Below, piece after piece: positions 9,820 through 12,451 of a DNA stretch of 64,000 nt. The notes below the pieces were generated by a model. That model saw only the letters and a program-made list of their open reading frames with translations. It was not told where the DNA came from and ran no database searches. Location: assembly GCA_020061355.1 (NCBI GenBank), contig JAGUYK010000032.1, positions 124,001 to 188,000 of the forward strand, written 5' to 3'. Source of the stretch: Ignavibacteriales bacterium. Lineage in GTDB: Bacteria; Bacteroidota; Ignavibacteria; Ignavibacteriales; Melioribacteraceae. Numbering within the stretch: the first letter of the stretch is position 1; every line of letters begins with the position of its first letter. The position numbers and the translations under genes were made by a program.

Positions 9820-9873
9820 ATACATTTTTATGCATCAATAAATAGATTCATATTGTTGAGCAATGGAGGCATT

Positions 9874-10827
9874 ATGAAACTAGGATTCTTAATTTCAGCT
9901 CTATTTAGCTTTTCTGGTTTAGTCTTTTCTCAAAATCCCTGTCCAAATTTGCCTGCAGTCAATTATGGCGGGAAAATATATAACACTGTTCAAATTGGAA
10001 CACAGTGCTGGCTAAAAGAAAACCTTGATATAGGAACGATGATACCGGTGAATCAAGATGGAAGCAACAATGGTTCAATAGAAAAGTACTGTTATAATAA
10101 TGATATAAATAATTGTAATGTTTATGGTGGGTTATACCAGTGGAATGAAGCAATGCAATATGCGTCAACACCCGGTTCAAAAGGAATTTGCCCAACCGGC
10201 TGGCATATCCCAACAATCGAAGAATTTCAATCCTTAGCAAATATGGTTCAAAATGATGGTAATGCATTGAAAGCAATAGGACAGGGAACCGGAAATGGTT
10301 CAGGAACCAATACAAGTGGTTTCTCTGCATTATTATCCGGATACAGAGGAAACGATGGTCAGTCCTACTATATAGGCAGCCATTCCCGTTTCTGGGGTTC
10401 AATAGAAAATATTACTTTCGGTGCAAATATCATTCACCTTTACTACAACGTTGGCAATATTGGCTTTGGCGATGGTTATAAGGAATTCGGTTATAGTGTT
10501 CGATGCGTTAATGATATTAATATCACTTCTGTTTTTGAAGAGTTAAATCAGAATCAAATTCCAGAAGGGTATTCAATTTCACAAAACTATCCCAATCCTT
10601 TTAATCCTAATACTTTGATAAAATATTCAATTCCTAAATTCTGCCATGTTACAATAAAACTTTTTGATTTATTAGGAAAAGAAATTTTATTATTGATTGA
10701 TGAAGATAAGAATCCGGGTAATTATGAAATCTACATTAATGGAAAGGATTTTGCATCTGGAATCTATTATTATAAGATAAACGCGGGCGAATTTTTACAA
10801 TCGAAAAAAATGGTTTTGCTAAAATAG
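9874..10827 (+). CDS. Secreted FISUMP protein with type IX sorting tail
   Basis: 317 residues from ATG 9874, which has GGAGG (9865-9869) in front; a TTG frame extension to 9853 is not needed. Signal peptide about 1-20, FISUMP domain about 22-215 (YNTVQIGTQCWLKEN, GGLYQWNEAM, GWHIPT, YSVRCV), then a C-terminal Por/type IX secretion sorting domain (about 235-317). The tail begins with ISQNYPNPFNP and ends in the basic QSKKMVLLK. By family knowledge the tail is removed during export by the type IX system and the protein is attached to or released from the surface. It shares its main domain with the lipoprotein at 6386. Confidence 0.9.
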   Translation: MKLGFLISALFSFSGLVFSQNPCPNLPAVNYGGKIYNTVQIGTQCWLKENLDIGTMIPVNQDGSNNGSIEKYCYNNDINNCNVYGGLYQWNEAMQYASTPGSKGICPTGWHIPTIEEFQSLANMVQNDGNALKAIGQGTGNGSGTNTSGFSALLSGYRGNDGQSYYIGSHSRFWGSIENITFGANIIHLYYNVGNIGFGDGYKEFGYSVRCVNDINITSVFEELNQNQIPEGYSISQNYPNPFNPNTLIKYSIPKFCHVTIKLFDLLGKEILLLIDEDKNPGNYEIYINGKDFASGIYYYKINAGEFLQSKKMVLLK

Positions 10828-10904
10828 TATCAAATAATACTTGTTTTATAAAATGTGTATCCTGCTATTTAGGCGGGTGGGATTAAAAACCGGATAAGAA
10901 TTAC

Positions 10905-10935
10905 TTGCGGATACATTCTAAAAACACTACTTTGC
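10905..10935 (+). promoter_or_regulatory. Candidate promoter of the trp leader
   Basis: TTG (10905-10907), 20 bases, then TACTTTGC (10928-10935), close to the Bacteroidetes -33/-7 pattern TTTG...TAnnTTTG. It would start transcription about 20 bases before the leader-peptide ATG. Sequence match only; one base short of the consensus spacing in the -7 box. Confidence 0.4.
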
Positions 10936-10962
10936 GATTGCAAATTTTAAAACAAGAATTGT

Positions 10963-11028
10963 ATGGCAGTTATTAATAACATATCGAATTTAAGCTGGTG
11001 GTGGAGAATTAATTCTCTGCCATCCTGA
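10963..11028 (+). CDS. trpL: Trp attenuation leader peptide
   Basis: A 21-codon frame with ATG at 10963 and TGA at 11026-11028 reads MAVINNISNLSWWWRINSLP plus S. Three tandem TGG codons lie at 10996-11004. Tandem Trp codons in a short frame about 120 bases ahead of a tryptophan synthase gene are the hallmark of ribosome-mediated attenuation. The spacing fits: a ribosome stalled on the Trp codons leaves 11016-11025 free, whereas a ribosome at the stop codon covers it. The ribosome binding site is weak (AAGAA), which is not unusual in this phylum. Name given by function, not homology. Confidence 0.8.
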   Translation: MAVINNISNLSWWWRINSLPS

Positions 11029-11130
11029 TGCTATTTAAATAAACAATAAACTAAAAGCCGTGGATGGTAGAACAGTTCACGGCTTTGTTATATCCAGTCG
11101 TGAACTTCCATTCAGCGGCTTTATTTTTTT
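11016..11130 (+). promoter_or_regulatory. Trp attenuator: antiterminator and terminator
   Basis: Antiterminator: 11016-11025 (TCTGCCATCC) pairs with 11062-11071 (GGATGGTAGA) over 10 bp with one G-U. Terminator: AAAGCCG (11054-11060) pairs with CGGCTTT (11116-11122), ATGG (11064-11067) with CCAT (11108-11111), and AGTTCACG (11074-11081) with CGTGAACT (11099-11106), followed by ATTTTTTT (11123-11130). The antiterminator uses bases of the terminator's left arm and encloses the rest, so the two exclude each other. A further 9-bp hairpin is possible between 11054-11062 and 11078-11086. The RNA should terminate when Trp-tRNA is plentiful. Pairing was done by eye. Confidence 0.78.
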
Positions 11131-11149
11131 AAACCAAAGGAGGTTCACA

Positions 11150-12451
11150 ATGTCAGGCAGTAAAATTGTTTTTCTCGATCAAACTAAAATGCCAACTAAT
11201 TATTATAATATTTCAGCGGATTTGCCCGAACCAATGGCTCCACCGCTTCATCCCGGAACTAAAGAACCAGTTGGTCCTCAGGATTTATCGGCAATTTTTC
11301 CTATGGAATTAATTATGCAGGAAGTTTCAACGGAGCGATTTATTGAAATTCCTGATGAAGTACTGGAACTCTACAAAATTAGCCGGCCAACGCCTTTAAT
11401 TAGAGCATCAAATCTTGAAAAATATTTAGACACACCGGCAAAAATATTTTATAAGTATGAAGGCGCAAATCCAACCGGAAGTCATAAAACTAACACTTCA
11501 TATGCCCAGGCGTATTATAACAAGAGAGCCGGAATTAAAAAGCTGGTTACTGAAACCGGAGCGGGGCAGTGGGGAAGTTCACTTGCAATGGCATGTAAAC
11601 ATTTTGGTTTGGAGTGCGAAGTCTTTATGGTAAAAGTTAGCTATCATCAAAAACCATATAGAAAAACTTTGATGAACCTTTTTGGTGCAGAGGTTCATGC
11701 AAGTCCTTCAAATCTTACAAATGCCGGAAGAAAAGTTCTGGAAGCCGATCCGGATTCGCCCGGTTCTCTCGGTATTGCTATAAGTGAAGCAATCGAAAAA
11801 GCAGTCCAGAGAGATGACACAAATTATAGTCTTGGCAGTGTTCTAAACCATGTGCTGTTGCATCAAACAATAATTGGTGAAGAAACCCGTATTCAATTTG
11901 AAATGATCGATCATTATCCGGATGTTGTAATTGGATGCGTAGGCGGAGGCAGTAACTTTGGAGGGATAGCATTTCCATTCCTTCGAGATAAACTAAGGGG
12001 AGATCATAATGATCTTCAAGTGATCGCTGTAGAACCGGAATCATGTCCCACGCTTACACAGGGAAAATTTGAATACGATTTTGGTGATGAAGCCTGTATG
12101 ACACCGCTTCTTAAAATGTACACGCTGGGGCACAATTTTATTCCACCGAGCATTCACGCGGGCGGGCTGCGTTATCATGGGATGGCGCCAACTATTTCGC
12201 ATTTGCACAATCTAGGTTTTATTGAAGCTTCATCTTATAATCAATCAGTTGTTTTTGATGCAGCGAAAGTTTTTGCACAGACGGAAGGAATTGTTCCGGC
12301 TCCGGAAAGTTCTCATGCAATCAAGGAAGCAATAGAACAAGCATTGAAATGTAAAACGGAAGGCACTTCAAAAACTATTCTCTTCAATTTATCCGGACAC
12401 GGGTTTTTGGATCTTGGTGCTTATGAACAGTTCTTAAATAACAGTTTATAG
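11150..12451 (+). CDS. trpB: Tryptophan synthase beta chain, TrpB2 type
   Basis: 433 residues from ATG 11150, preceded by AAAGGAGG (11136-11143). It makes tryptophan from indole and serine with PLP. The PLP lysine is K113 in NPTGSHKTN, and the phosphate-binding GGGSNFGG is at about 264-271. The long N-terminal extension and the sequence around SRPTPLI place it with TrpB2, the longer form often found apart from the trp operon. No trpA or other trp gene is adjacent. TrpB2 enzymes are thought to salvage free indole or to act without TrpA. The upstream leader with three Trp codons indicates that its expression follows tryptophan supply. The gene ends at a bidirectional hairpin. Confidence 0.93.
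   Translation: MSGSKIVFLDQTKMPTNYYNISADLPEPMAPPLHPGTKEPVGPQDLSAIFPMELIMQEVSTERFIEIPDEVLELYKISRPTPLIRASNLEKYLDTPAKIFYKYEGANPTGSHKTNTSYAQAYYNKRAGIKKLVTETGAGQWGSSLAMACKHFGLECEVFMVKVSYHQKPYRKTLMNLFGAEVHASPSNLTNAGRKVLEADPDSPGSLGIAISEAIEKAVQRDDTNYSLGSVLNHVLLHQTIIGEETRIQFEMIDHYPDVVIGCVGGGSNFGGIAFPFLRDKLRGDHNDLQVIAVEPESCPTLTQGKFEYDFGDEACMTPLLKMYTLGHNFIPPSIHAGGLRYHGMAPTISHLHNLGFIEASSYNQSVVFDAAKVFAQTEGIVPAPESSHAIKEAIEQALKCKTEGTSKTILFNLSGHGFLDLGAYEQFLNNSL

Follow-up and report, generated by a model that had tools for sequence, protein, structure and literature searches.

A leader that, judged from sequence comparison, very probably works as a ribosome-mediated tryptophan attenuator lies directly upstream of trpB2 in the analysed stretch of 64,000 nucleotides from an Ignavibacteriales bacterium (called the window), and as a whole explanation we consider it likely that, in the clade to which the window belongs, this attenuator is joined to a second, translational level of control. 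The sequence-only reading of this DNA had proposed Trp attenuation of trpB2. Our results support it and amend it at three points, i.e., the assignment of the terminator, an anti-Shine-Dalgarno segment that had been overlooked, and a host that is poor in the rest of the pathway. The features of the leader are summarized in Table 1, and the paired segments are numbered from 1 to 6 in the text.

Table 1. Coordinates of the leader features and of trpB2 in the window
Feature	Position	Strand	Description and basis
Weak promoter-like site	10905..10934	+	TTG...TACTTTG, about 30 nt 5' of the leader ATG; pattern scan
Leader ORF with WWW	10963..11028	+	21 codons and TGA; sequence, alignment of relatives, shuffle test
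Three tandem Trp codons (putative sensor)	10996..11004	+	Run unique in the window; alignment of relatives
Segments 1:2, pause hairpin	10997..11024	+	12 bp, 10997-11008 with 11013-11024; folding, 1:2 hairpin in the alignment consensus
Segment 2, antiterminator 5' arm	11016..11025	+	Covariation, folding
Conserved terminator hairpin 3:4	11054..11086	+	11054-11065 with 11075-11086; folding, alignment
Segment 3, antiterminator 3' arm, common to the terminator	11062..11071	+	Covariation, folding
Segment 4 (GTTCACGGC), partner of 3 or 5	11075..11083	+	Duplex and covariation analyses
Segment 5	11097..11109	+	11097-11105 with segment 4, 9 bp; 11100-11109 (anti-Shine-Dalgarno) with 11139-11148, 10 bp with one G-U
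Segment 6 and U-run	11109..11130	+	With 11054-11067 closes the longer second terminator; folding
Shine-Dalgarno and extension of trpB2 (GGAGGTTCAC)	11139..11148	+	Sequence, motif script, covariation
trpB2	11150..12451	+	433 aa, TrpB-like PLP enzyme; profile and structure-relative matches

Leader ORF and tryptophan codons

The 21-codon leader with three tandem TGG codons is found exactly where the sequence-only reading had placed it. It starts with ATG at 10963, ends with TGA at 11026-11028 and encodes the peptide MAVINNISNLSWWWRINSLPS. The TGG run (TGGTGGTGG at 10996-11004) is the sole run of its kind across the 64-kb window, while 18 of 100 shuffled sequences contained at least one. Besides, the leader is the only WWW-containing ORF of 8-45 aa on both strands of the window, and the expectation is 0.07 per shuffled window (60 shuffles). 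A chance ORF was ruled out by these shuffle tests on the TGG run and on WWW-containing short ORFs.

Among the 29 aligned leaders from relatives (see below), 27 contain WWW or WWWW, with WWQW in L004 and WRQW in L024, and the distance from the Trp codons to segment 3 is steady at 52-64 nt in all 29. The ORF is thus a putative translated leader with tandem Trp codons, as expected of an attenuator. In the window, the TGG codons, the antiterminator arm and the stop codon follow each other in this order. A ribosome covers about 12 nt past its A site, and in this model a ribosome at the stop codon would cover the arm while a ribosome at the Trp codons would leave it free; the distances agree with the classic geometry claimed earlier for this arm. 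In L014 and L028-L031, the stop codon is located just 5' of the arm rather than 3' of it.

The promoter consensus of Bacteroidota is TAnnTTTG. A pattern scan based on it, run over the 75 nt upstream of the leader, yielded a weak site of the Bacteroidota type (TTG at 10905 and TACTTTG at 10928), which is one base short of TAnnTTTG; the full pattern occurs 12-16 nt 5' of the leader start in 13 of the 29 aligned leaders. A sigma-70-type promoter scan of 10800-11200 found no promoter-like site on the plus strand. The gene upstream of the leader (9853-10827 of the window) contains a Fibrobacter succinogenes major domain and a secretion-system C-terminal sorting domain. In two genomes of the same genus, a tRNA-Lys on the minus strand (2992-3064 in L002 and 2995-3067 in L003) ends about 5-7 nt 5' of the leader ATG, and joint transcription and processing of leader and tRNA are therefore possible there. 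A tRNA-Lys is also present in L008 and L011, farther upstream of the leader.

Pause hairpin and antiterminator

The fold of 10963-11135 reaches -50.5 kcal/mol (z -4.37), and none of 200 shuffled sequences is equally stable. The 10-bp antiterminator of the earlier reading turned out to be exact: segments 2 and 3 pair over their full length, and 11012-11075 folds at -17.9 kcal/mol with z -4.90 (0 of 200 shuffles). We also found the pause hairpin 1:2 (z -3.84; 0 of 200 shuffles), which was absent from that reading.

In the alignment of 29 leaders, the antiterminator core is 98.5% paired, compared with 20-63% in slid versions. The antiterminator covaries in relatives: 11 cells are altered on both sides, 0 of 500 shuffles attain the covariation score, and two pairs have both-side changes, a number attained by 3 of 500. 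One pair is changed from C-G to U-A in 10 rows. The tally of further pair types is no higher than that of shuffles (470 of 500). Segment 3 and the arms of the terminator show almost no variation. We also swapped partners between species and compared the mean duplex energies of own and foreign partners, which are -14.9 and -11.9 kcal/mol for 2:3, -14.3 and -14.1 for 3:4, and -9.9 and -8.0 for segment 5 with the Shine-Dalgarno (SD) segment (5:SD). Antiterminator and terminator are mutually exclusive and are kept in relatives, and so is the TGG run; loss of the run or of the pairings in close relatives had been named as the outcome that would speak against attenuation.

Predicted tandem terminators

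The sequence-only reading had assigned the terminator to a 19-bp stem at 11054-11122. The structure at 11054-11122 and the run behind it do exist (-31.1 kcal/mol, z -6.69, 0 of 200 shuffles, followed by ATTTTTTT), but instead of a plain 19-bp stem it comprises an outer set of 14 pairs, interrupted by a bulge, that encloses an inner set of 11, and it is not the form conserved among relatives. The conserved form is the short hairpin 11054-11065:11075-11086 (-16.8 kcal/mol, z -4.62, 0 of 200 shuffles).

At least six U stand right after the CGG(C)/GC part of the short hairpin in 20 of the 29 loci and five U in four, and the U-run is broken in five (L001, L002, L003, L020 and L027). In the window, the short hairpin (terminator 1) is followed by GUUAU, a U-run interrupted by G, and a second site with U7 lies downstream, closed by the long structure. 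Pairing of segments 3 and 6 with at least nine pairs in the stop state is predicted solely in L001, L003, L005 and L011 of the 29. In most of L021-L031, a second hairpin, followed by a U-run, stands apart from the first. From these comparisons, tandem termination sites appear to be common among relatives, and the long 11054-11122 form appears to be local. A consensus terminator scanner, limited to loops of 3-8 nt, made no call in 10800-11200; the loops of both hairpins are longer.

Segment 5 and the ribosome-binding site of trpB2

Segment 5 resembles segment 3 and is therefore able to pair with segment 4. In the clade including the window it has two potential partners, the terminator arm at 11075-11083 and the ribosome-binding site of trpB2. 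The anti-SD hairpin folds with z -3.71 (1 of 200 shuffles), and the duplex between spacer and SD reaches -17.1 kcal/mol in the window, which none of 500 shuffles attains.

With a script we searched 39 loci for the motif CGTGAA, which was picked after the sequences had been inspected, and for its SD partner GTTCA. Both are present in 16 loci and both absent in 22; in the sole exception, L027, the CGTGAA match is segment 3 itself. For each of the 14 loci among the 29 that carry the motif, no more than 19 of 500 shuffles equal the spacer:SD duplex in strength; in L007 and L015, which lack the motif, the duplexes are about as rare as in L006 and L009 (18-19 of 500). On a TrpB2 tree of 38 of the 39 rows (L173, with 100 aa, was dropped), the motif label needs 3 changes, while shuffled labels need about 12 on average, and the number is 3 whether L168 is labelled or not. 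The simplest reading, with several forks of the tree open, would be one gain and two joint losses of the anti-SD and the SD extension, proposed for the group L004, L007, L010, L012 and L015 and for the row L014. The motif-less group of five rows has a support of 91/93, below the starred level, and the starred branches alone force 2 changes.

The helix 5:SD is 92.4% paired in the alignment versus 25-54% when slid; its covariation is modest, with a single pair changed in both arms, a level attained by 254 of 500 shuffles. Helix 4:5 is too constant for covariation to be informative, and over all 29 loci its duplex has -12.9 kcal/mol with its own partner and -12.4 kcal/mol with partners swapped between species. 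Considered as a possible second antiterminator in L021-L031, 4:5 seldom wins in the folds of that group.

The equilibrium fold of the full window leader did not display a relay from the leader to the SD: with a stalled ribosome, 2:3 is not predicted to form (0.1 bp), and the accessibility of the SD is much alike in the two ribosome states (0.40 and 0.46), because the 3:6/4:5 structure wins at equilibrium. Among the 29 loci, 2:3 reaches at least four pairs in the stalled state in just five, and L006, L009, L017 and L019 switch between 2:3 with 4:5 and 3:4 with 5:SD. Since the equilibrium fold favours the long structure in both states of the window leader, we used conditional folds instead, in which segment 3, or segments 3 and 4, are forced out of play, so that part of the model is assumed. 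Taking segment 3 out of play, as compared with taking out both 3 and 4, frees the SD by a mean of +0.28 across the 14 motif loci versus -0.02 in the 15 loci without the motif; the gains are weak in L005 (-0.11), L011 (0.01) and L009 (0.09), and the motif-less L028 gains 0.23. L167 and L168 were left out of the duplex swaps, both kinds of folds and the spacer:SD shuffles. In these models, the balance tips moderately towards a translation arm, in which segment 5 would sequester the SD of trpB2 and a stall would be relayed to the start of translation.

The main alternative is a plain four-segment transcription attenuator, in which segments 5 and 6 serve merely as a reserve terminator and the complementarity to the SD is without function. 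The classic arrangement alone is retained in L004, L007, L012 and L015; most of L021-L031 have the second hairpin with its U-run and none of them has the anti-SD pair; and the preference of the window for the long structure in both states fits this alternative as well. It is nevertheless unlikely. The anti-SD and the SD extension come and go together, with two joint losses as the simplest reading, L006, L009, L017 and L019 retain segment 5 although a segment-6 terminator is not seen there, and the strength of the spacer:SD duplex exceeds that of shuffles.

Proposed mechanism

We propose the attenuator with a second, translational level as follows. When charged tRNA-Trp is scarce, the ribosome would stall at the WWW codons and leave segment 2 free, 2:3 would form, and transcription would proceed into trpB2. 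With segment 3 held by segment 2, segment 4 would capture segment 5 and the ribosome-binding site would be open. When Trp is plentiful, a ribosome at the stop codon would cover segment 2, and segment 3 would either pair with segment 4 (terminator 1) or close the longer structure with the U7 run (terminator 2). Once 3:4 has formed, segment 5 would be free to cover the SD of those transcripts that escape termination. For this complete two-level relay, in which a stall leads through 2:3 and 4:5 to an open SD and its absence to 3:4 termination and a 5:SD block of translation, arguments for and against are evenly balanced in our judgement. The leader, its pairings and their conservation are observed here, and from them we infer the response to Trp, the termination and the translation step.

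If the relay is true, a single stall event would control both termination and translation, and trp-type transcription attenuation would be joined to erm-type translation attenuation by one chain of alternative helices. This chain would be built from a repeated terminator arm and would govern an indole-salvage enzyme in a host without the remaining pathway. Relatives without the second level are ready comparisons for it.

Another conceivable mode is action in trans, by the leader peptide or by the RNA released at the terminator, with attenuation in cis being secondary; such a role in trans is reported for peTrpL of Sinorhizobium (PMC7298713). We regard this as very improbable: apart from the W run and a loosely similar SLPS/SLLS terminus, the peptide is poorly conserved as judged by eye, while the RNA pairings are kept.

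TrpB2 and the tryptophan pathway

The switch elements adjoin trpB2, as had been claimed: the gene starts with ATG at 11150, and its product is of the TrpB2 type by profiles, with 731 bits for NF009057 (cut-off 366) and 673 bits for TIGR01415 (cut-off 519). The nearest solved relatives by sequence (6hul, 4qys and 6hte) are labelled tryptophan synthase beta chain 1 or 2. By these assignments, the gene downstream of the leader is one of Trp synthesis, as an attenuator of this kind would require.

The genome of the window is 99.88% complete and has a single TrpB match. Profile searches of it for trpA and for IGPS (trpC) returned no match. For trpE, its best match has 183 bits, compared with 510-538 bits for the trpE of six relatives, and is not convincing; a strict cut-off of 517.7 is missed by two of these six and passed by merely 5 of 14 control genomes. 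The best trpD match in the genome (24 bits, versus 381-391 in two relatives) is not convincing either. TrpB2 acts in indole salvage in Thermococcus kodakarensis according to work cited in PMC11085991, from its available text. Because the rest of the Trp pathway is missing, the TrpB2 of the window probably makes Trp from indole. The same genome contains a gene of the tryptophanase subfamily (L185, G000:C7; 702 bits, cut-off 285), which falls short of the two TnaA equivalog cut-offs and might supply indole internally, and a tyrosine phenol-lyase (L186, G000:C36; 744.5 bits, over the cut-off of 720.7).

In the family, 27 of the 29 leader-bearing genomes were examined for trpA, which is over the cut-off in 15 and under it or absent in 12, nine of which are at least 90% complete. 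The occurrence of leader-bearing TrpB2 in genomes without trpA suggests an indole-salvage enzyme that is tuned to the supply of Trp, and the leader makes this idea of salvage by TrpB2 testable.

Distribution of the leader among relatives

The search of related trpB2 upstream regions for ORFs with tandem TGG, which the sequence-only reading had suggested, proved fruitful. Of 80 genomes of the family, 76 have a match to the TrpB2 protein at E <=0.001, a number that includes TrpB1 and other PLP enzymes, and 44 places in these genomes are of the trpB2 type (at least 57% identical). Two could not be read, L022 with 37 nt upstream and L044, which is truncated. Among the other 42, 29 have a leader of this type upstream of trpB2 (28 by script, and L024, with WRQW, by eye), another Trp-rich ORF precedes the gene in three, and a Trp-rich leader was not found upstream of trpB2 in ten. 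The three (L033, L034 and L036) have a differing leader ending with WWLSC or WWWLSC, followed in L033 and L036 by a hairpin GCTTTCC...GGAAAGC without a clear U-run. L010 (G059) lacks a Trp-rich leader but retains what resembles a relic of the terminator hairpin, which suggests an attenuator that has decayed.

A covariance model of the 29 leaders matched 56 of 165 genomes of the order (E <=0.01, weak matches counted). We read 18 matched regions: nine are before trpB2 in other families of the order, six are before a trpE-like ORF, and three have no Trp leader. Behind one good Trp leader (L173, G152), the ORF stops after 100 aa, which may reflect a frameshift, decay or an error of assembly. Two of the six trpE-like ORFs are profile-identified trpE places and the others were judged by eye. 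In the six, which come from six genomes (L177-L182), the Trp leader has another type of terminator-like hairpin (ACCCTTCT...AGAAGGGTTTTTTG or a near match) directly 5' of the ORF. A Trp leader can thus also precede a trpE-like gene in relatives that possess a trp operon, which indicates that attenuation in the order is not confined to trpB2. A tRNA-Asn is located just 5' of this leader in L179 (2435-2507) and L181 (2259-2331), on the minus strand, and the L179 leader matches the Rfam Phe leader with 35.4 bits, below the gathering score of 55.

In a sample of the phylum, 10 of 395 genomes matched at E <=1e-4, every one within the order; that search scored 10 candidates per genome with strict filters, so absence beyond the order is weak evidence. 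Short WWW ORFs were also seen upstream of trpB2 outside the order in 7 of 71 loci (L056, L067, L075, L080, L084, L086 and L092), versus 0 of 71 on the reverse strand and 0.0 expected (20 shuffles each); in L067, L075 and L084 they are followed by tandem terminator-like hairpins, as judged by eye. In general, these data give candidate ribosome-mediated Trp attenuation a firm place in Ignavibacteriota, where the leader precedes a standalone TrpB2 gene retained by genomes that lack trpA.

Comparison with known systems

Ribosome-mediated Trp attenuation is best known from the trp operons of proteobacteria. Like E. coli trpL (RF00513), the leader of the window has a short ORF with tandem Trp codons, a pause hairpin and a mutually exclusive antiterminator and terminator. 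Unlike trpL, it precedes a lone trpB2 in Ignavibacteriales, has no Rfam match and contains segments 5 and 6 and an anti-SD.

An Rfam scan of the window leader and of 8 and 12 further loci found no family at gathering, including RF00513 and RF01692. A known riboswitch or Rfam leader was rejected, the sub-cut-off matches being ascribed to chance or to a remote likeness. It is extremely improbable that the leader binds a protein or a ligand (TRAP, T-box or Trp riboswitch) and contains the ORF by accident. The Rfam trpB motif RF04312 matches weakly (23.9 bits in the window and 37 in L012; gathering 59), but no leader tested reaches the gathering score of any Rfam family, and the spacing of the Trp codons in the 29 leaders is steady. 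In the available text of PMC11109978, the authors of RF04312 call it a strong riboswitch candidate and do not exclude a classic attenuator. That motif resembles our leader in having a hairpin, a possible antiterminator and a terminator and in standing occasionally before trpB; its hosts, however, are Firmicutes and Fusobacteria, it is mostly found before an ABC transporter gene, and the window scores far below gathering. Bacteroid-trp RNA (RF01692), described in the portion of PMC2864571 available as a candidate cis-regulatory motif of Bacteroidetes and linked to Trp by its name, is likewise similar in kind, but it is absent from the Rfam matches of the window leader at E up to 10.

The available parts of the open-access literature, PMC1854888 and PMC4833913 included, contain no Trp leader before a standalone trpB2 in Ignavibacteriota, and no antiterminator relay to an SD is described in such parts. 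Actinobacteria have classical Trp leaders, and a candidate in C. diphtheriae precedes an operon called trpB2A; unlike ours, these attenuators belong to another phylum and to operons with trpA (PMC1262725). In the leader of B. subtilis tlrB (yxjB), as far as the text available of PMC6851288 describes it, ribosome stalling in the leader overcomes a terminator and also a hairpin that sequesters the SD, as we propose here. In contrast to our leader, its signal is tylosin, the ribosome blocks directly, and that text identifies no overlapping antiterminator, whereas we propose a Trp signal and an antiterminator relay. In conclusion, among the systems compared here, tlrB of B. subtilis is the closest system in mechanism, and the trp attenuators of proteobacteria and Actinobacteria are the closest by signal.
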